A stretch of DNA of 64,000 nt. It comes from Epibacterium sp. Ofav1-8. Its GTDB lineage: Bacteria > Pseudomonadota > Alphaproteobacteria > Rhodobacterales > Rhodobacteraceae. Location of the stretch: contig NZ_JAKRFD010000006.1 in the NCBI RefSeq assembly GCF_022348185.1, forward strand, positions 1-64,000, given 5' to 3'. This document shows positions 1 to 6,635 of this stretch, piece after piece. The translations under genes and the position numbers were made by a program. Every line of letters begins with the position of its first letter. Within the stretch, counting starts at the first letter, position 1. The notes under the pieces are model-generated. The model saw nothing but the letters and a program-made list of their open reading frames with translations. It did not search any database and was not told where the DNA came from.

Positions 1-48
1 TCACCCCAAAAACAAAAAACTCTCTAAACAAAACACAAAAACAAACAC

Positions 49-125
<77 letters not shown>

Positions 126-152
126 AATTACATATAAATATAAAGACGTTAC

Positions 153-176
153 AGCCGCCAAATGGGCGGCTTCTTT
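153..176 (+). terminator. Terminator after tRNA-fMet
   Basis: A GCCGCC stem pairs with GGCGGC across a short AAATG loop and is followed by TTCTTT. It lies 28 bases after the tRNA and probably ends the rRNA operon transcript. Confidence 0.8.
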
Positions 177-204
177 AGTTCGCAACAGCCTCAACCTCCA
201 AAAC

Positions 205-425
205 ACAGTGACCATCGTTGATCGGACCCTTTCGAGATCGTCATGGGGGTCCTCGTTCCAGTCGCGCGTTTTCGGCCGCCTCGCTTGCGCACAGTCAGCC
301 CCTCTTCGCTGTAGATTCGGTAGACCAACACCTAATTCAGATGCAACCTGCTTGCTTGTTAGCCCGCTTGCCAACGCGATCCGCACCGCATCAACGCGGA
401 ATGCGCCCGTCCGTTTCGTTCCCAT
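205..425 (-). pseudogene. IS3-family orfA fragment (transposase helper, broken)
   Basis: Reading leftwards from an ATG at 425, the first 35 or so codons give a recognisable IS3-family OrfA start: KRTGAFRVDAVRIAL, then SGLTSKQVASELGVGL, the helix-turn-helix. Similarity breaks after that and resumes only weakly near DPHDDLERVR, which suggests frameshifts or small deletions. The leucine-zipper part and orfB do not follow, so it cannot be functional. It points away from the orfB fragment at 590-868, so the two are not one simply decayed insertion; they are either two insertions or one rearranged copy. Confidence 0.7.
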
Positions 426-511
426 CGCTCGTCTCCTTGGCTGCTATAAATGCAATCGAAGGAGCAGCATGACATCGCGACACGTCCAGCGGAGGTCCAC
501 TTCAGTGCGGC

Positions 512-884
512 TGACCTTCCCCCCCGGTATCCGGGCCATTGCGAACTGGAGATTTCCACCTTTGAATGGATGAAGGAGGAAGCTCCCTGAAGCCGGTGCA
601 GAACGCCTTCGTGGAGAGTTTCAACGGCAAGTTCCGAGGTGAGTGCCTGAACTTGCATTGGTTCCGATCCCTGCGCCATGCCCGCGATGAAATCGGACGA
701 TGGCGAAATCACTACAACACCAAGCGCCCACATTCGGCGCTCGGATACCTATCCCCAACGGAGTTCCTGATGAAAACCGCCGCGCCAGCGCTTGCGACTC
801 TTGCGGTTTCCACGCTGCCGCTAAACACTCAAACCCAACCGGAAGATTCCAGGTCAAACCGGCCCTAACCTCGGGGAAAGGTCA
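512..884 (+). mobile_element. Internally deleted IS3-family (IS407-like) element
   Basis: The left end begins TGACCTTCCCCCCCGG at 512. The complement of the right end, reading inwards from 884, begins TGACCTTTCCCCGAGG, so the termini form an imperfect inverted repeat starting TGACC, as in the IS407 subgroup of IS3. Between them lie a short leader and only the last part of orfB. The copy is 373 bp against about 1.2 kb for an intact element. The flanking tetramers CGGC and CGGG are not a clean target duplication. Confidence 0.55.
590..868 (+). pseudogene. IS3-family orfB transposase, C-terminal fragment
   Basis: From codon 590 the frame encodes the end of an IS3-family DDE transposase: NAFVESFNGKFRGECLN, which holds the catalytic Glu of the DDE triad, then HYNTKRPHSALGYLSP, the strongly conserved C-terminal signature. 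The first two catalytic Asp residues and the rest of the integrase core are missing. The remaining frame runs to a stop at 868 through a tail with no recognisable similarity. It is inactive and sits inside the 512-884 remnant. Confidence 0.8.
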
Positions 885-1215
885 CGGGAAGGTCCGGTCT
901 CCGTCACGCTTGAGGCTGAGAGGAGACGGCCAACGCGCTGAATACGGATTTTAACTGCGACGACAATCCGACCATCCAACAAAGGTAAAAAGCCGGCATT
1001 AGGAGCGGACCTAAGCTGGGATTTTCTGCGCCGCCGCAAGGCCCCTCCAAGCCCTTTTTCGACGATGGGTCGACAGATCAGGCGGCTTGATTTGCAAGAA
1101 TGTCCCTTAAGTGCCAGTGCGGCCAGCGAGCAGCGCATCGGTGGTGCAGCCTCGGATTAAGTCAAACGACGGCGTCATCTTCTGGTGACCCGAAGCACAC
1201 CTCCATGAACGCATG
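885..1215. other. Gene-free stretch between IS remnant and LysR gene
   Basis: No open frame here has a ribosome-binding site, family resemblance or coding-like composition. The part at about 935-1060 has the look of degenerate dispersed intergenic DNA seen in roseobacter genomes, but I cannot confirm that from one copy. Confidence 0.4.
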
Positions 1216-2112
1216 TCATGATCTTGCCGAGCGCAGCCGGTCGATCAAAAGCCGTAGAGCCGAGCTAAGATTTCGCCGCCCCATGTAGCACAGGTGGTAG
1301 CCGTCGAAGGGCGGGCAGAAGTTGGCGAGGACACGGTGGACACGTCCGGTGTCGAGGTCCGCGCGGACTTCCGGCAGCGGCAGGTAGCCAACCCCGTGAC
1401 CCGCCCGCACCGCTTCCATCACGAGGCCGGGGTCGTTCAGGATGAAAGGACCGGTCAACTTTTTCACCACCTCAACGCCCGCGAGCTCAAATTCCCAGTC
1501 ATAGACTGGCCCATCGGAGCGGTGCCGCATCAGGATGCAGTCATGGGCATCGAGATCGTCGGGGTGGCGTGGGGTGCCACGCCGCGCGAGGTAGTCGATA
1601 CTGGCAACCGCTGCCATTTCCAACTGTGGCCCGACGGGGACCGCGATCATGTCGGGGCTGAGATGCTCTCCGAGCCGGATCGCGCAGTCAAAACGGTCTT
1701 CGGCGAGGTCAGAAAGGCGACCCTCGCTGCTGATCTCGATGCGGACGTCGGGATAGTCGCGCACCAGCTGCGAGGCCACCGGCCAGAGGATATCGCGCGT
1801 GGCTGGCACGCTGGAGGTCACCCGCACCAGCCCCGAGGGGCGTTCGCCCAGGGTGCGGATTTCCTCGATCCTGTTGTCAAGGTGCCGGAAGCTTGGGCGC
1901 AGCGTTTCGAGAAGCCGCTCACCCGCGTCGGTGGGGGTCACCTTGCGCGCGCTGCGGTTCAGCAATCGCACGCCGATCTTGTCCTCCAGCCGCCGGATCG
2001 TGTGACTGACGGCGGATTGGGACACGCCGAGGCGGTGTCCGGCGCGGGTGAAATTGCCCTCTTCGGTGACGGCGAGAAGAGTCGACAGATCGCCGAGCAT
2101 TTCACGGTCCAT
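1216..2112 (-). CDS. LysR-family transcriptional regulator
   Basis: This 298-residue protein has the LysR layout: an N-terminal winged helix-turn-helix at about residues 5-65 (FTRAGHRLGVSQSAVSHTIR is the recognition region) and a C-terminal substrate-binding-like effector domain. The start at 2112 is chosen because AGGAG lies seven bases upstream and the frame matches the usual LysR start; a longer reading from 2178 adds an implausible leader. It is transcribed away from the hydrolase/cupin/CMD cassette beginning at 2291, and a LysR-type palindrome lies between them at 2187-2203. It is therefore probably the cassette's regulator, responding to an unknown small molecule related to the pathway. 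Confidence 0.93.
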   Translation of the reverse strand: MDREMLGDLSTLLAVTEEGNFTRAGHRLGVSQSAVSHTIRRLEDKIGVRLLNRSARKVTPTDAGERLLETLRPSFRHLDNRIEEIRTLGERPSGLVRVTSSVPATRDILWPVASQLVRDYPDVRIEISSEGRLSDLAEDRFDCAIRLGEHLSPDMIAVPVGPQLEMAAVASIDYLARRGTPRHPDDLDAHDCILMRHRSDGPVYDWEFELAGVEVVKKLTGPFILNDPGLVMEAVRAGHGVGYLPLPEVRADLDTGRVHRVLANFCPPFDGYHLCYMGRRNLSSALRLLIDRLRSARS

Positions 2113-2186
2113 GGCGCGCTCCTGCTGTAGTTCGCGGTTGTCTGGGGCAAAGAATAGCGCGGTGCAAAGGAAAAACACCGCTCTAG

Positions 2187-2203
2187 CATGAATTCAGTTC
2201 ATG
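2187..2203. promoter_or_regulatory. LysR-type operator (T-N11-A palindrome)
   Basis: CATGAA and TTCATG flank TTCAG, giving a perfect 6-bp inverted repeat with the T-N11-A core (2189 to 2201) expected for LysR regulators. It sits in the 178-bp divergent gap between the LysR gene and the hydrolase gene. Confidence 0.6.
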
Positions 2204-2290
2204 GAACCGATAAGGCAGGGTGACCTTATCCAGCTCCGGATGCAGGTCCAGATTGGGGGCAGACGACACATTCGAACCGGAGTTTCCGAC

Positions 2291-3376
2291 ATGACCACCC
2301 CAATCTCCCCGACCGATCCCCAAGACCCCGCCCGCCGAGAGCTGCTGCTGACTGCCGGAGCAGGCGCTGCCGCGCTTAGCATGGCATCGCTGAGCGCCGA
2401 GGCCGCACTGGCGCAGGCGAGCACCGAGTGGGATAAAACTTTCCCGCAGAGCGACCGCGTCGACCACCGCAAAGTGAGCTTCACCAACCGCTACGGCATC
2501 GCGCTGGTGGGCGATCTCTATCTGCCGAAAGACCGTGGCGAGGCGCCCCTTCCCGCGCTTGCTGTCGCCGGCCCCTTTGGCGCCGTCAAGGAGCAGGCCG
2601 CGGGCCTCTATGCCCAGGAAATGGCCGAGCGCGGCTTTGCCGCCGTGGCGTTCGATCCCTCCTACATCGGCGAAAGCGGCGGAGCCCCGCGCTACGTTGC
2701 ATCGCCCGACATCAACACCGAGGACTTCATGGCGGCAGTCGATTTCCTCGGGTTGCAGGACGTGGTGGACCGCGACCGTATCGGTATGATCGGCATCTGT
2801 GGCTTTGGCGGCATGGCGCTGAACGCAGCCGCCCCCGACAAGCGGGTCAGGGCGGTGGCGGTGACCTCGATGTACGACATGAGCCGGGTGAACGCCCGCG
2901 GCTATTTCGATGCGATGACCGAGGAGGATCGCACCGAGGCGCTGACGGCCATGAGCCTGCAACGCTGGGAAGACGCCGCCTCGGAGGGGGCTCCGAAGCT
3001 GGCCGGTGGTCTGCCGGACACGCTGGACGGCATCGATAACCCGGTGATCGCCATGTATCACGCCTATTACAAGACGGACCGCGGCTATCACGCGCGTTCC
3101 CTGAATTCGAACGGCGGCTGGAACGTCACCTCGGCCATGTCCTTCATGAACATGCCGCAGCTCACCTACATCCATGAGATCTCGCCGCGCCCGGCACTGA
3201 TCATCGCCGGGTCCGAGGCGCATTCCCGCTACTTCAGCGAAGACGCCTACGCGGCGGCGCGCGACCCCAAAGAGCTGGTGATCATCGACGGCGCGGATCA
3301 CTGCGATCTCTACGACCAGAAGGACATCATCCCCTTCGACCGCCTTCAGGCGTTCTTCGAAGGTCACCTCACCTAA
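2291..3376 (+). CDS. Tat-exported alpha/beta hydrolase (dienelactone hydrolase-like)
   Basis: The 361-residue protein opens with a twin-arginine leader (ARRELLLTAGAGAAAL, RR at residues 15-16, probable cleavage after AQA near residue 43), so it should be exported folded to the periplasm. The mature part is an alpha/beta hydrolase. The nucleophile elbow reads GICGFGG, giving Cys170 as the likely nucleophile, as in dienelactone hydrolases, instead of the common GxSxG serine. A late GADHCDLYD supplies the catalytic His. A start at 2201 is possible but lacks a leader; GGAG lies nine bases before 2291. It is first in the cassette with cupins and a CMD protein, suggesting ester or lactone opening. 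The substrate is unknown. Confidence 0.85.
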   Translation: MTTPISPTDPQDPARRELLLTAGAGAAALSMASLSAEAALAQASTEWDKTFPQSDRVDHRKVSFTNRYGIALVGDLYLPKDRGEAPLPALAVAGPFGAVKEQAAGLYAQEMAERGFAAVAFDPSYIGESGGAPRYVASPDINTEDFMAAVDFLGLQDVVDRDRIGMIGICGFGGMALNAAAPDKRVRAVAVTSMYDMSRVNARGYFDAMTEEDRTEALTAMSLQRWEDAASEGAPKLAGGLPDTLDGIDNPVIAMYHAYYKTDRGYHARSLNSNGGWNVTSAMSFMNMPQLTYIHEISPRPALIIAGSEAHSRYFSEDAYAAARDPKELVIIDGADHCDLYDQKDIIPFDRLQAFFEGHLT

Positions 3377-3384
3377 GGCCCCGG

Positions 3385-3422
3385 ACCTGCCCTCGCGCGC
3401 GGGGGCAGGTCTCGTTGTTTTT
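3385..3422 (+). terminator. Terminator or attenuator between hydrolase and cupin
   Basis: ACCTGCCC pairs with GGGGCAGGT over a GC-rich loop, followed by CTCGTTGTTTTT. It lies eight bases after the hydrolase stop, so the three downstream genes may have their own promoter or be expressed by read-through. Confidence 0.65.
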
Positions 3423-3445
3423 GCACCGATTATGGAGACACCCCA

Positions 3446-3901
3446 ATGAAGACGACATTTGCAGCACTTGCCCTGAGCCTCGCCGCGCCCGCGGTCCTCG
3501 CCCAGCAGATGACACAGTCCACGGCCCTGGAGCGAGGCGGCCAGATGGGCAGTCCGGACACCTTCACCGGAACAGTTTTTGTCGCACCGGTGTTCGCCCC
3601 CGACATGAACGATGTCAGCGCAGGTGAAGTGACCTTCCTGCCCGGTGCGCGTTCGGCCTGGCACAGGCATCCGGTGGGGCAATACCTCGTCGTGACGGCG
3701 GGGACCGGGTGGTATCAGGAAGAAGGTCACGCCAAACAGGTGATGCGCACCGGCGATGTGGTGTTCGCCCCAGCGGGCGTAAACCACTGGCATGGCGCGA
3801 CGAAAAGCACCTCGGTCACCCATTACGCGATTCAGGCGGTTCAGGACGGCTCTGCCGTAACCTGGGGGGAGTTGGTTTCCGACGAGGACTACGGAAGCTG
3901 A
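3446..3901 (+). CDS. Secreted cupin protein
   Basis: A Sec signal peptide (MKTTFAALALSLAAPAVLA, cleavage before QQ) precedes a single small-barrel cupin domain. The first metal motif is WHRHPVGQ and the second is HWHG near residue 114, so two or three His ligands for a divalent metal are present. The total length is 151 residues. It resembles the compact cupins grouped with manganese-dependent mandelonitrile lyases and quercetinase-like enzymes. It is clearly paralogous to the cytoplasmic cupin at 4792: both contain FTGTV, AWH-HP, GDV-F and VTW-E-VSD-DY. GGAG lies eight bases before the ATG. Whether it acts as lyase, dioxygenase or isomerase cannot be told. Confidence 0.85.
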   Translation: MKTTFAALALSLAAPAVLAQQMTQSTALERGGQMGSPDTFTGTVFVAPVFAPDMNDVSAGEVTFLPGARSAWHRHPVGQYLVVTAGTGWYQEEGHAKQVMRTGDVVFAPAGVNHWHGATKSTSVTHYAIQAVQDGSAVTWGELVSDEDYGS

Positions 3902-3979
3902 ATCCGAACGCCTGCAACTGGAGACCGGTGTGACCGGTCCCCGCCTGATCGCCAAATCACCGATATTAAGGATGCTCCC

Positions 3980-4741
3980 ATGAAGACCCAGATCATTGCC
4001 TCCGCCTTCGCTCTCGCCAGTACCGCCGCCTCGGCACAGGACCTGGCCCGAACCCTTCCTGCCGCCGCCGATGCGGTGGCTCCGGCGCTCGCCGCCTATG
4101 CCACCGAAGACCTCTTCGGCTCGGTCTGGACCGACGAGGCGCTCTCGATACGCGACCGCGCGCTTGTCACCTTTGCGGCGCTGGTCACACGCCACGAGGC
4201 GGATACGCTTGGACGTCACACCGAACTGGCGCTTGACGCGGGCGTGACCCCGGCGGAGCTGTCGGAAACCATCACGCATCTCGCGTTTTACACCGGCTGG
4301 GGCAACGCCACCGCAGCAGCCGAGGCCATGGCCCCGGTCTATGACGCGCGCGGCGTGACCGCCGAAGACCTGCCTGCTCTCGCGCCCGATCTCCTGCCGC
4401 TGGACGAAGAGGCCGAAGCTGCGCGGGAAGAGGCGGTTCAGTCCAATTTCGCCCATGTCAGCCCCGGCGTCGTCGATACCACGCGCGAGCTGCTGTTCAA
4501 CGACCTCTGGCTGCGCCCGGCCCTTGCGCCCCGCGACCGTAGCCTGGTCACCGTTGCGGCGCTGATCACCGCCGGCCAGCCCGAGCAGATGACCTTTCAC
4601 CTGAACCGCGCAATGGACAACGGGCTGACGCAGGAAGAGGCAGGCGCGATGCTCTCGCATCTTGCCTTTTATGCGGGCTGGCCCAAGGTGTTCTCGGCGA
4701 TGCCCGTGGCGCGGCAGGTGTTCGAGAGCCGCGCAGACTGA
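3980..4741 (+). CDS. Secreted tandem carboxymuconolactone decarboxylase-like protein
   Basis: This 253-residue protein has a Sec signal peptide (cleavage after ASA, near residue 19) and two CMD domains. Repeat one, about residues 45-125, contains [12 protein letters not shown] and HLAFYTGWG. Repeat two, about residues 165-250, contains [12 protein letters not shown] and HLAFYAGWP. The duplication is visible by eye. Neither repeat has the CxxC of AhpD-type peroxidases, so a decarboxylase or isomerase-like role is more likely than a redox role. CMD proteins are normally cytoplasmic, so the export signal is unusual. The gap from the preceding cupin holds a GACCGG-TGTGA-CCGGTC hairpin near 3923-3939 without a T-run. 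Confidence 0.88.
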
Positions 4742-4791
4742 AATCCTGCGGCGCGGCCACGGCCCCGCCGCCTCACCAACGGAGACATTCC

Positions 4792-5187
4792 ATGAAGATC
4801 ATCCGAGCTGGCAGCACGCCCTCCGCCCCCGGTCCCGAAGACTATTTCACCGGAACCGTGCGGATCGACCCCCTGTTCCAAGCCGACGCCCCCGGCCGCA
4901 CCAGCGGTGCCCATGTGACCTTCGAACCCGGCGCCCGCACCGCCTGGCACACCCATCCGGCGGGACAGACGATCATCATCACCTTCGGCCGCGGCAGGGT
5001 GCAACGCGAAGGCGGCCCGATCGAAGAGGTGTCGACGGGCGATGTAATCTTCTTCCCCGCGGACGAGAAGCACTGGCATGGCGCCGCCCCCGAGACCGCC
5101 ATGTCACATATCGCCATTCAGGAGAGCATCGACGGCACGCCGGTAACCTGGCTGGAAAAGGTCTCCGACGCGGACTACACTGGCTGA
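4792..5187 (+). CDS. Cytoplasmic cupin protein
   Basis: This 131-residue single-domain cupin has no signal peptide. The two cupin motifs are complete: AWHTHPAGQ near residue 45 and KHWHG near residue 88, with GDVIFFPA between them. It is a paralog of the secreted cupin at 3446, sharing the order FTGTV, PGAR-AWH-HP, GDV-F-PA, HWHGA and the C-terminal VTW-EKVSD-DY. GGAGA lies nine bases before the ATG, and it is the last gene of the cassette. Metal-dependent lyase or dioxygenase activity is plausible but unproven. Confidence 0.87.
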
Positions 5188-5557
5188 AGGCAACCGCATT
5201 GCCACCTGTTGTGGTGGCCGCGCGGCGATGGCTGTTCGCCGAGGTCCGGCGCTCCGAGGCCGGGCCCTGAGCAACGGTTTGCTTTGGGGCGCTAACGACG
5301 AACGTCCAGAAATTCCAAGCACAAGTTTGCCCGTGCCTCGGTCTTGCAACCACGGCGAACAGCCGGTCCGCTGAAGCTGCACCGCAGCAAAGGCATCTTT
5401 GATGAACGGCAGGAGTGGGCCGTTCAAACTACGTCATACAGGATCTCAGCGCTCTCGACGGCTTCATCGGACACCTTAGATGGGTCAACATCACTGCATA
5501 AAGGTAAATTATGTGCCCGACAGGCAGAATACCTCTGCAATCGACACCTTGTTTTAT
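5188..5557. other. Gene-free stretch before tRNA-Pro
   Basis: No supported gene is seen. The part at about 5215-5315 resembles degenerate dispersed intergenic DNA common in roseobacters, and short frames in it look like read-through of such repeats. No terminator with a clear T-run was found for the cassette. Confidence 0.35.
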
Positions 5558-5634
5558 TGGTCGGAGCGAGAGGATTCGAACCTCCGGCCCCTGCCTCCCG
5601 AAGACAGTGCTCTACCAGGCTGAGCTACGCTCCG
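5558..5634 (-). tRNA. tRNA-Pro (CGG)
   Basis: The complement folds into a 77-nt cloverleaf with encoded CCA. The acceptor CGGAGCG pairs with CGCTCCG, the D-loop is normal and the T-loop is GGTTCGAATCC. The anticodon CGG (genomic 5598-5600) reads the proline codon CCG. One G-T wobble occurs in the anticodon stem. A promoter-like sequence lies just upstream. Confidence 0.97.
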
Positions 5635-5641
5635 ACCGTGG

Positions 5642-5675
5642 CGCGTGAAGTATACCCAGATCCGGGAGTTTGCAA
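5642..5675 (-). promoter_or_regulatory. Probable promoter of tRNA-Pro
   Basis: On the minus strand TTGCAA (5670-5675) is followed after 15 bases by TATACT (5649-5654), placing transcription start a few bases before the tRNA. The -10 is strong, while the spacing is one or two bases short of ideal. Confidence 0.55.
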
Positions 5676-5678
5676 GCA

Positions 5679-6635
5679 CTATTCGCTACGATCATCCGAG
5701 GAATTTCGCTTAAGAAAGAACGATACGTTCAAGCCACCTGTGGTAACCGCTCGGCTGCGTGTTTGCAGCACCGGGGTGTTGGAGGAGCGGCCTCCGCGGG
5801 CCTCTCTCAGAACGATGAAGACACCGCTTGCGATGATGAGCGCCGCGCCCACCAGCGTCAGGAGATCGACGCTTTCGTCAAATAGCAGAGCGCCAAAGAT
5901 GGTCGCCCAGATGATCTGCGAATACTGCATCGGTGCCACGACGGCGGCTTCACCAAAGGAGTAGGCCGTGACCAGAAGAAGCGTGGCGCAGAACCCGAAG
6001 GCGGCGATAATGGCAAGCCCGCCCAGCTCCGGTCCGGTCAGCGGAACATAGACAAAGGGGAGGGTCAGCCCCATGACCACGACGGTGGTCAGCATCGGAA
6101 ACAGCATGAGGACGACTCGCCGCTCGACATGGCTCAGCTTGCGGAGAATGACGGACTGAAACGCATTGCCAAAGGCGGCAAGCAAGGCGGCAGCGTGGCC
6201 GGGGCCCAATGTGGTCTGACCGGGGCGCAGGACCACCAGAACCCCCACAAAGCCCAGGAGCACGGCCGCCATGCGGGGCAGGCCGACCTTCTCTCCCAGG
6301 ATCGGGATGGACAGAAGCGTAATCAGCAGCGGTGTGGCAAACAGGAGCGCATAGGTCTGCGCCAATGGCAGCACCGAAAACGCATAAAACGCGCTGGCGG
6401 GGACCACCGACATCGACAACGATCTGAGCGCCATCCAGCCGGGGTGCTGTGGCCGCAGCGTGCCGGGGGTCGAATCCCGCACCATCATCATCGTCAGCAA
6501 CGGAAAGGAGAGCAGGCTGGAGAAGAACACGATCTGAAAGGCCGAGACCTCGGCGCTGACATATTTCACCACCACGTCGTGGGTGGAAAAAATCACATAG
6601 GCCAGCAGGGCCAACAGGGCTGCTTTGATATTCAT
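5679..6635 (-). CDS. EamA-family (DMT) permease
   Basis: This 318-residue inner-membrane protein has about ten hydrophobic segments in two EamA repeats. The start at 6635 (MNIKAALLALLAYVIF) begins directly with a transmembrane helix, whereas the longer frame from 6761 adds a polar, repeat-like leader. The family exports or imports metabolites such as amino acids and nucleotides; the substrate here cannot be assigned. It lacks the FMN riboswitch seen before the other EamA gene at 22804. The C-terminal 35 residues are charged and non-conserved-looking. Confidence 0.88.
   Translation of the reverse strand: MNIKAALLALLAYVIFSTHDVVVKYVSAEVSAFQIVFFSSLLSFPLLTMMMVRDSTPGTLRPQHPGWMALRSLSMSVVPASAFYAFSVLPLAQTYALLFATPLLITLLSIPILGEKVGLPRMAAVLLGFVGVLVVLRPGQTTLGPGHAAALLAAFGNAFQSVILRKLSHVERRVVLMLFPMLTTVVVMGLTLPFVYVPLTGPELGGLAIIAAFGFCATLLLVTAYSFGEAAVVAPMQYSQIIWATIFGALLFDESVDLLTLVGAALIIASGVFIVLREARGGRSSNTPVLQTRSRAVTTGGLNVSFFLKRNSSDDRSE

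Follow-up and report, generated by a model that had tools for sequence, protein, structure and literature searches.

A horizontally acquired LysR-associated CMD–cupin cassette with predicted exported and cytoplasmic cupins in Epibacterium sp. Ofav1-8

Introduction

At the start of contig NZ_JAKRFD010000006.1 of Epibacterium sp. Ofav1-8 (assembly GCF_022348185.1; genome size 4.76 Mb), four co-directed enzyme open reading frames (ORFs) and a divergently oriented LysR-type regulator gene sit between a tRNA-Met and a tRNA-Pro gene. The locus raises a simple question: why would one small gene set encode two related cupins, one with a predicted export signal and one without, next to a hydrolase and a double-CMD protein that likewise carry predicted signals? 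The window, as we use the term, is the whole stretch analysed, which starts with the contig and spans 64 kb. A sequence-only reading of this DNA had proposed a self-contained pathway that processes a lactone- or ester-type compound in the periplasm and finishes inside. Our comparison with relatives points, tentatively and at somewhat less than even confidence, to a different answer: the cassette may be a reduced, horizontally mobile form of a widespread neighbourhood of LysR, CMD and cupin genes, and it would clear a membrane-crossing electrophile on both sides of the inner membrane.

Results

Pfam matches, reported at E ≤ 0.001 for the window's proteins, confirmed the four previously noted ORFs and their families, namely S15/alpha-beta hydrolase, Cupin_2 (both cupins) and CMD. 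All four lie on the plus strand. The first encodes a PA2218-like alpha/beta-hydrolase with a twin-arginine (Tat) motif, RRELLL (HYD; 2291–3376), followed by a 151-aa cupin with a Sec-type signal (CUPsp; 3446–3901), a 253-aa double-CMD protein, also with a Sec-type signal (3980–4741), and a 131-aa cupin without any predicted signal (CUPcy; 4792–5187). The LysR gene (1216–2112; Pfam HTH_1 and LysR_substrate) occupies the minus strand. Within the genome, the hydrolase is present once, the cupin family is represented by these two proteins alone, and the CMD protein occurs as one close copy, alongside three weak matches. PADLOC returned no anti-phage defence family at E ≤ 0.01 among the four enzymes, with LysR outside the scan.

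The predicted division between compartments is well supported by its conservation. A CMD-based search matched 150 stretches, 128 of which encoded relatives, and the best 80 of these 128 loci (L001–L080) were used throughout. Export signals were scored by a home-made simple rule combined with inspection of the aligned starts by eye. The rule flagged CUPsp in 55 of 57 loci and the CMD protein in 77 of 79 (leaving aside one more row that had no usable start), as opposed to none of 74 CUPcy proteins; for HYD it flagged 18 of 23 (16 Tat and two Sec, one of the latter, in L080, looking false by eye). The exceptions are few: four of the five unflagged hydrolases represent a 46–47% identical paralogue and the fifth, in L007, is cut by a contig end; the two unflagged CUPsp proteins (L003 and L057) lack only the Lys/Arg that the rule demands; and the two unflagged CMD proteins (L076 and L077) have a lipobox and look like lipoproteins by eye. 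By rule and by eye, N-terminal signals are thus conserved in homologues of HYD, CUPsp and the CMD protein, which makes misread starts unlikely and leaves standing the earlier view that three of the four products are exported and that the two cupins part ways. The accompanying remark that CMD proteins and small cupins are normally cytoplasmic was too strong, given that signal-bearing versions are common in relatives.

Both cupins exceed the curated cut-off (140 bits) of the NCBIfam (R)-mandelonitrile-lyase model NF049940, CUPsp with 150.4 and CUPcy with 189.8 bits; NCBIfam matches were judged by such cut-offs throughout. CUPcy aligns to PDB 4bif without a gap across 129 residues (E = 2.8e-53), and the structure matches of CUPsp are 4bif and 4uxa. 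We take these entries, along with 8oz8, to be GtHNL-type manganese cupins, with His53, His55, Gln59 and His94 (GtHNL numbering) presumably serving as metal ligands. The corresponding positions are invariant in 75 CUPcy rows and their equivalents in 58 CUPsp rows. Two other residues of the pocket, whose roles we assume from work on GtHNL, were also compared: the His is invariant and the Gln is substituted in a single CUPsp row. Neither window cupin contains a cysteine. By score and by metal-ligand positions, both are members of the GtHNL/mandelonitrile-lyase family.

The two proteins share about 51% identity. In a 144-row tree, limited by few columns and several long rows, all 75 inner cupins group with 4bif and two plasmid cupins (support 100/87), and the 58 exported cupins fall on one side of a branch whose support is weak (88/6) and which recurs in 87% of bootstrap trees. 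Accordingly, the pair consists of two old cupin lineages that have stayed together rather than of a recent duplication. CUPcy thus resembles the GtHNL-type cupins in metal-site residues and tree position, whereas CUPsp differs from them by its signal and its separate lineage. Signal-like N-termini were also seen by eye on plasmid cupins of E. coli, Klebsiella and Pseudoalteromonas, which lie outside the CUPsp lineage in the tree.

The complete order LysR–HYD–CUPsp–CMD–CUPcy recurs in 10 of the 80 loci (L001–L010) from eight named genera, counting one in which LysR is reduced to remnants (L005) and one whose contig ends inside the hydrolase (L007); the genes flanking these ten cassettes differ. 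Conservation as a gene set, as anticipated by the sequence-only reading, therefore withstood the synteny check. The proposal of a self-contained pathway gained no such support, since CMD and the cupins of the other 70 loci belong to larger and differently built clusters that include reductase and oxidase genes. The hydrolase, moreover, is lacking in 58 of the 80 CMD-based loci and in all 20 stretches of a cupin-started sample (described below). Altogether, CUPcy was found in 75 of the 80 loci, CUPsp in 57, both in 56 and either in 76; LysR in 72, mostly another one about 40% identical; and the hydrolase in 22, including the 46–47% paralogue and one protein at 37%. Restricting the tally to the 64 loci with a length of 14.6 kb or more gave 59 for CUPcy, 48 for CUPsp, 47 for both, 60 for either, 59 for LysR and 16 for the hydrolase.

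Because these loci had been picked through CMD, a second test sampled the class with the cupin as its starting point. Of 289 genomes searched at E ≤ 1e-20, 36 matched and 29 loci were kept, from which the 20 best-scoring—passing over G535, at a contig end—were examined with ±8 kb on either side; five of these stretches (L204, L207, L208, L213 and L215) fell short of 14 kb owing to contig ends and were retained. Twenty control stretches came from the genomes of the test stretches (16) or from other genomes among the 29 (4), and one of them (G612) ends about 11 kb from its own genome's cupin, the remainder lying farther off. CMD genes were present in 6 cupin-started stretches versus 0 controls, LysR genes in 9 versus 0, any of seven carbonyl-redox families in 12 versus 3, and HYD in none of either. 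This version supersedes an earlier class-wide count with 1.5-kb flanks, in which 29 cupin loci and 26 leuB-centred controls yielded 5 versus 0 for CMD, 8 versus 1 for LysR and 0 versus 0 for HYD.

Elsewhere among the Rhodobacterales loci, an F420-type reductase gene is found in 63 of the 80, usually between CMD and CUPcy, and a cyclophilin-like gene in 49. Various mixes of GSDH, RibD_C, MFS, aldo/keto reductase, SDR and Zn-alcohol dehydrogenase genes surround them, as does a pair encoding a 2Fe-2S protein and a molybdenum oxidase. Several of these products also read as exported: the molybdenum (cofactor) oxidase subunit as Tat in 11 of 11 cases, GSDH as Sec in 20 of 22, and the Zn-alcohol dehydrogenase as Tat. 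Positive calls for F420-type reductases and SDRs were dropped as Rossmann false positives by eye, those for MFS proteins reflect membrane spans, and the signal count for Cyclophil_like2, which permitted any start, is an upper bound. In five loci (L011, L013, L015, L022 and L028) the gene for the Tat-signalled molybdenum oxidase subunit directly adjoins that for the 2Fe-2S protein.

Related gene groups also occur on plasmids. Among 22 stretches hand-picked for variety from two listings (14 via the cupin, 8 via CMD; 21 of them annotated), tblastn detected CMD and cupin together in 10, the cupin alone in another 10 and CMD alone in 2. In the Klebsiella stretch (L150), counted here under cupin alone, an annotated CMD gene is present that matches less strongly. 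CMD and cupin are fused in proteins from S. medicae, Selenomonas and Tistrella (loci L153, L155 and L164). The S. medicae fusion, of 396 aa and with a Sec-type signal, is encoded next to a Tat-signalled hydrolase that shares 60% identity with HYD; its cluster (CP140910: LysR, MFS, Tat hydrolase, Sec CMD–cupin fusion, cyclophilin-like) shares the enzyme set and signal pattern of the window but has the MFS and cyclophilin-like genes in addition, and tblastn found no second cupin in that stretch. On S. meliloti pSymA, LysR, CMD, a GSDH-like gene and a cupin gene lie within about 5.5 kb, and in Agrobacterium PaoABC, LysR, cupin, CMD and an aldo/keto reductase occur together. Tat-like N-termini occur even on an aldo/keto reductase and on a flavodoxin of the Klebsiella cluster (plasmid p69-1, L150), and a heavy-metal-type two-component pair adjoins or lies within that cluster. 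A Collimonas multi-omics study, in whose accessible parts CMD, dienelactone hydrolase and cupin genes merely appear in expression tables, was dropped from consideration (PMC12542777).

Several lines of sequence comparison indicate that the cassette is horizontally acquired. Similarity by blastn to L001, L002, L003 and L009 begins at window positions 932–957 and ends at 5313–5423, at 86–88% DNA identity and with the non-coding edges included; the common segment, with its extent as in L002, is 937–5423. The other six same-order loci align over less. The CMD gene was found in no other of 18 genus genomes searched (own included, one of them 67% complete; E ≤ 1e-60) and in 16 of 394 family genomes, again including its own (E ≤ 1e-40). 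Cassette genes show higher identity than leuB in the majority of comparisons made against the window. The clearest transfer pair links the Alloyangia and Paracoccus loci (L002 and L007), where 97% of bases agree in CMD versus 79% in leuB; in L008 and L010, the CMD gene has no identity excess over leuB.

The insertion spot is bounded by tRNA-Met (49–125, plus strand) and tRNA-Pro(CGG) (5558–5634, minus strand) and is variable among congeners. For 10 of the 12 congener stretches, similarity starts on the tRNA-Pro side of the spot (window 5547–5556); for L116 and L125 it stops short of this point, and no tRNA-Pro was found there. In one congener the two tRNA genes are about 2.5 kb apart and enclose, by eye, transposase-remnant-like ORFs and no cassette. 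On the tRNA-Met side of the cassette, an ORF at 566–868 looks by eye like the C-terminal portion of an IS3-type transposase. The G+C content is 55.6% in window positions 1–936, 64.4% in the cassette and 61.7% beyond 5600. Both cassette ends are single copy in the genome, the end alignments revealed no terminal inverted repeat by eye, and a mechanism of movement was not found. Carriage of the whole cassette by a plasmid was rejected, as no plasmid record covers 80% of the segment; Thioclava p3 has LysR, the hydrolase and an inner-type cupin, without CMD and without an exported cupin.

With respect to the individual enzymes, the CMD domain (PF02627) matches two stretches of the double-CMD protein (129.5 bits), whose closest solved structure, PDB 4g9q (E = 1.7e-76, residues 24–251), likewise has two CMD domains. 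The latter's designation as a 4-carboxymuconolactone decarboxylase is a deposited name only, and the window protein fails the PcaC model (TIGR02425; 98.2 bits, E = 3.5e-28, versus a cut-off of 155.7), so PcaC membership is refuted at the level of the profile; another gene of the same genome scores 186.1 bits, above that cut-off. An identity as an AhpD-type peroxidase, including RclX, was also rejected: the CMD family is common to both, but the accessible part of the RclX report names a catalytic CxxC as a requirement of this chemistry (PMC7950407), and the window protein has no cysteine, bears an export signal and is encoded next to LysR instead of RclR. In Mameliella alba (L071), the CMD gene is split over two ORFs, so that this relative seems to have lost CMD.

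HYD is closest to PA2218 (PDB 2hdw; residues 28–360, E = 1.9e-130) and also matches E. coli YcjY (PDB 5xb6; E = 4.9e-42). Its nucleophile elbow reads GICGFGG, compared to GICGWGG in PA2218; Cys170 is kept in 23 of 24 aligned rows (with one gap), His337 in all 24, and the candidate acidic partner Glu309 in 17. Near full-length similarity and the elbow cysteine place it among PA2218/YcjY-type alpha/beta-hydrolases. Both structures are named in PDB as hypothetical or uncharacterized proteins, from which HYD differs by its Tat signal, and the open-access literature searched returned nothing functional on either. Two more specific identities were rejected: the N-acyl-homoserine lactonase UilS (NF047920; 55 bits versus a cut-off of 400) and dienelactone hydrolase, no DLH family being among the Pfam matches. 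The cysteine nucleophile is shared by HYD and dienelactone hydrolase in kind only.

The divergent layout and the palindrome noted earlier are real, and two palindromes lie between LysR and HYD. The first, CATGAA-N5-TTCATG (2187–2203), is a candidate LysR site of the T-N11-A type; on its own it does not exceed chance (3 matches versus 2.4 expected in the window at up to two mismatches), but all 9 aligned cassettes preserve its core, ATGA-N7-TCAT. The second, GATAAGG-N8-CCTTATC (2209–2230), is a further candidate operator, with 1 match versus 0.05 expected under the same terms and both arms exact in 7 of 9 cassettes. The regulator itself is 88–94% identical at the amino acid level in 8 of the 10 same-order relatives, and its best NCBIfam match, YafC, falls short of the cut-off (138 versus 470 bits). 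At 1204–1220, where the LysR gene ends, lies a near-palindrome, CATGAACGCATGTCATG, most of which the aligned cassettes retain. A search for sigma-70-type consensus promoters within 900–5700 found none. A stable hairpin on the plus strand (3383–3412) follows HYD, ahead of CUPsp; relatives have it with a different loop, and 88.9% of cells pair across ten cassettes. A role as conserved terminator was rejected, as the U tract occurs in the window copy alone of the ten and covariation is not above that of shuffles.

Discussion

How might such a cassette work? From neighbours in relatives and from family chemistry, the substrate class is probably an aldehyde or lactone. The metabolite sensed by LysR would be small and electrophilic (an aldehyde, alpha-hydroxy-carbonyl or lactone most likely), and the regulator, acting from the palindromes at 2187–2230, would switch on all four enzymes. 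The Cys-type hydrolase may open an ester or lactone form in the periplasm, where the double-CMD protein together with the metal cupin could convert the freed keto or hydroxy acid by decarboxylation, proton transfer or C–C lyase chemistry; in the cytoplasm, the second cupin would run the same lyase step on material that has passed the inner membrane. We infer that the four enzymes act as one operon unit, with the inducer, substrate and reaction order just described. A cupin on each side suits a membrane-diffusing substrate, which leads us to favour a two-layer detoxification or scavenging module.

Consistent with this interpretation are the retained signal split, the joint presence of both cupins in 56 of the 80 loci, the invariant metal ligands, the CMD–cupin fusions and the frequent placement of relatives next to aldehyde-handling and other carbonyl-redox enzymes, aldehyde oxidases included. 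Other observations weigh against it. Since redox enzymes are absent from the compact cassette itself, the carbonyl link depends on its relatives, and NCBIfam matches of the ten neighbour families scanned were all under the curated cut-offs, for which reason we claim Pfam-level families and assign no specific function to them. SDR and molybdenum-cofactor genes occur in the controls as well (2 and 1 of 20, respectively). Outside the Rhodobacterales the association is loose, with CMD near the cupin in 6 of 20 stretches, HYD in none, and both CMD and cupin detected by tblastn in 10 of the 22 plasmid stretches. The signal calls come from a rule that wrongly flags some Rossmann proteins and, at about 51% identity, CUPsp and CUPcy need not share one reaction.

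A bolder form of the detoxification idea would make the cassette a dedicated two-layer unit, in which two old cupin lineages perform the same carbonyl-lyase step on either side of the inner membrane, with a Tat-exported Cys hydrolase and a double-CMD protein supplying the outer side; this 4.5-kb unit, passing between genera, would then represent the physiological setting of bacterial cupin hydroxynitrile lyases. We consider that version doubtful. The open-access literature searched yielded no native role for these lyases.

Somewhat less probable is the original proposal, taken as a dedicated catabolic route in which a nutrient of the lactone or ester type undergoes hydrolysis and decarboxylation outside before the inner cupin completes the process. 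The conserved Cys–His pair of the hydrolase, the CMD fold, the LysR layout and the LysR–MFS–hydrolase–CMD/cupin order in S. medicae would all suit it, yet a transporter is missing from the compact cassette, the lactonase and PcaC models all score below their cut-offs, and 58 of the 80 loci that keep CMD lack the hydrolase. With those models failing and the wider neighbours fitting carbonyl compounds at least equally well, processing outside and completion inside of a lactone or ester was a guess.

Defence of the envelope against reactive chlorine or other oxidants, with a peroxidase-like CMD protein, appears improbable. CMD-family genes elsewhere are HOCl-induced or HOCl-protective according to the accessible parts of two reports (RclX, PMC7950407; PMC7464077), the Klebsiella cluster has its two-component pair, and superoxide dismutase and ferredoxin reductase genes lie near a Salipiger abyssi plasmid copy; the AhpD/RclX chemistry, however, needs the CxxC (PMC7950407, in part), and neither the CMD protein nor either cupin has a cysteine. 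Genuine hydroxynitrile chemistry, the making or breaking of cyanohydrins, is very unlikely: the model scores and GtHNL structure matches of both cupins speak for it, but neither the ten neighbour-family scans nor the 21 annotated plasmid stretches name a nitrilase, nitrile hydratase or cyanide gene. A PcaC-like step in a beta-ketoadipate branch, suggested by the CMD domain and the E-value of the PcaC match, can be dismissed in view of the sub-threshold score, the better-scoring PcaC elsewhere in the genome and the export signal.

The open-access literature searched contained no characterised system with this layout, as the sequence-only reading had supposed, which is not proof of absence. Judged from the loci compared, the neighbourhood is widespread and the window's arrangement a variant of it, of which that literature held no description. 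Genome annotations commonly contain cupins labelled as mandelonitrile lyases as well as orphan CMD proteins. The cassette described here, compact, mobile and predicted to place one cupin outside and one inside, forms a small genetic unit in which the native role of such cupins could be tested. It comprises a single regulator and four enzymes, its predicted compartments are clear, and the CMD gene was not found in 17 other genomes of the genus.

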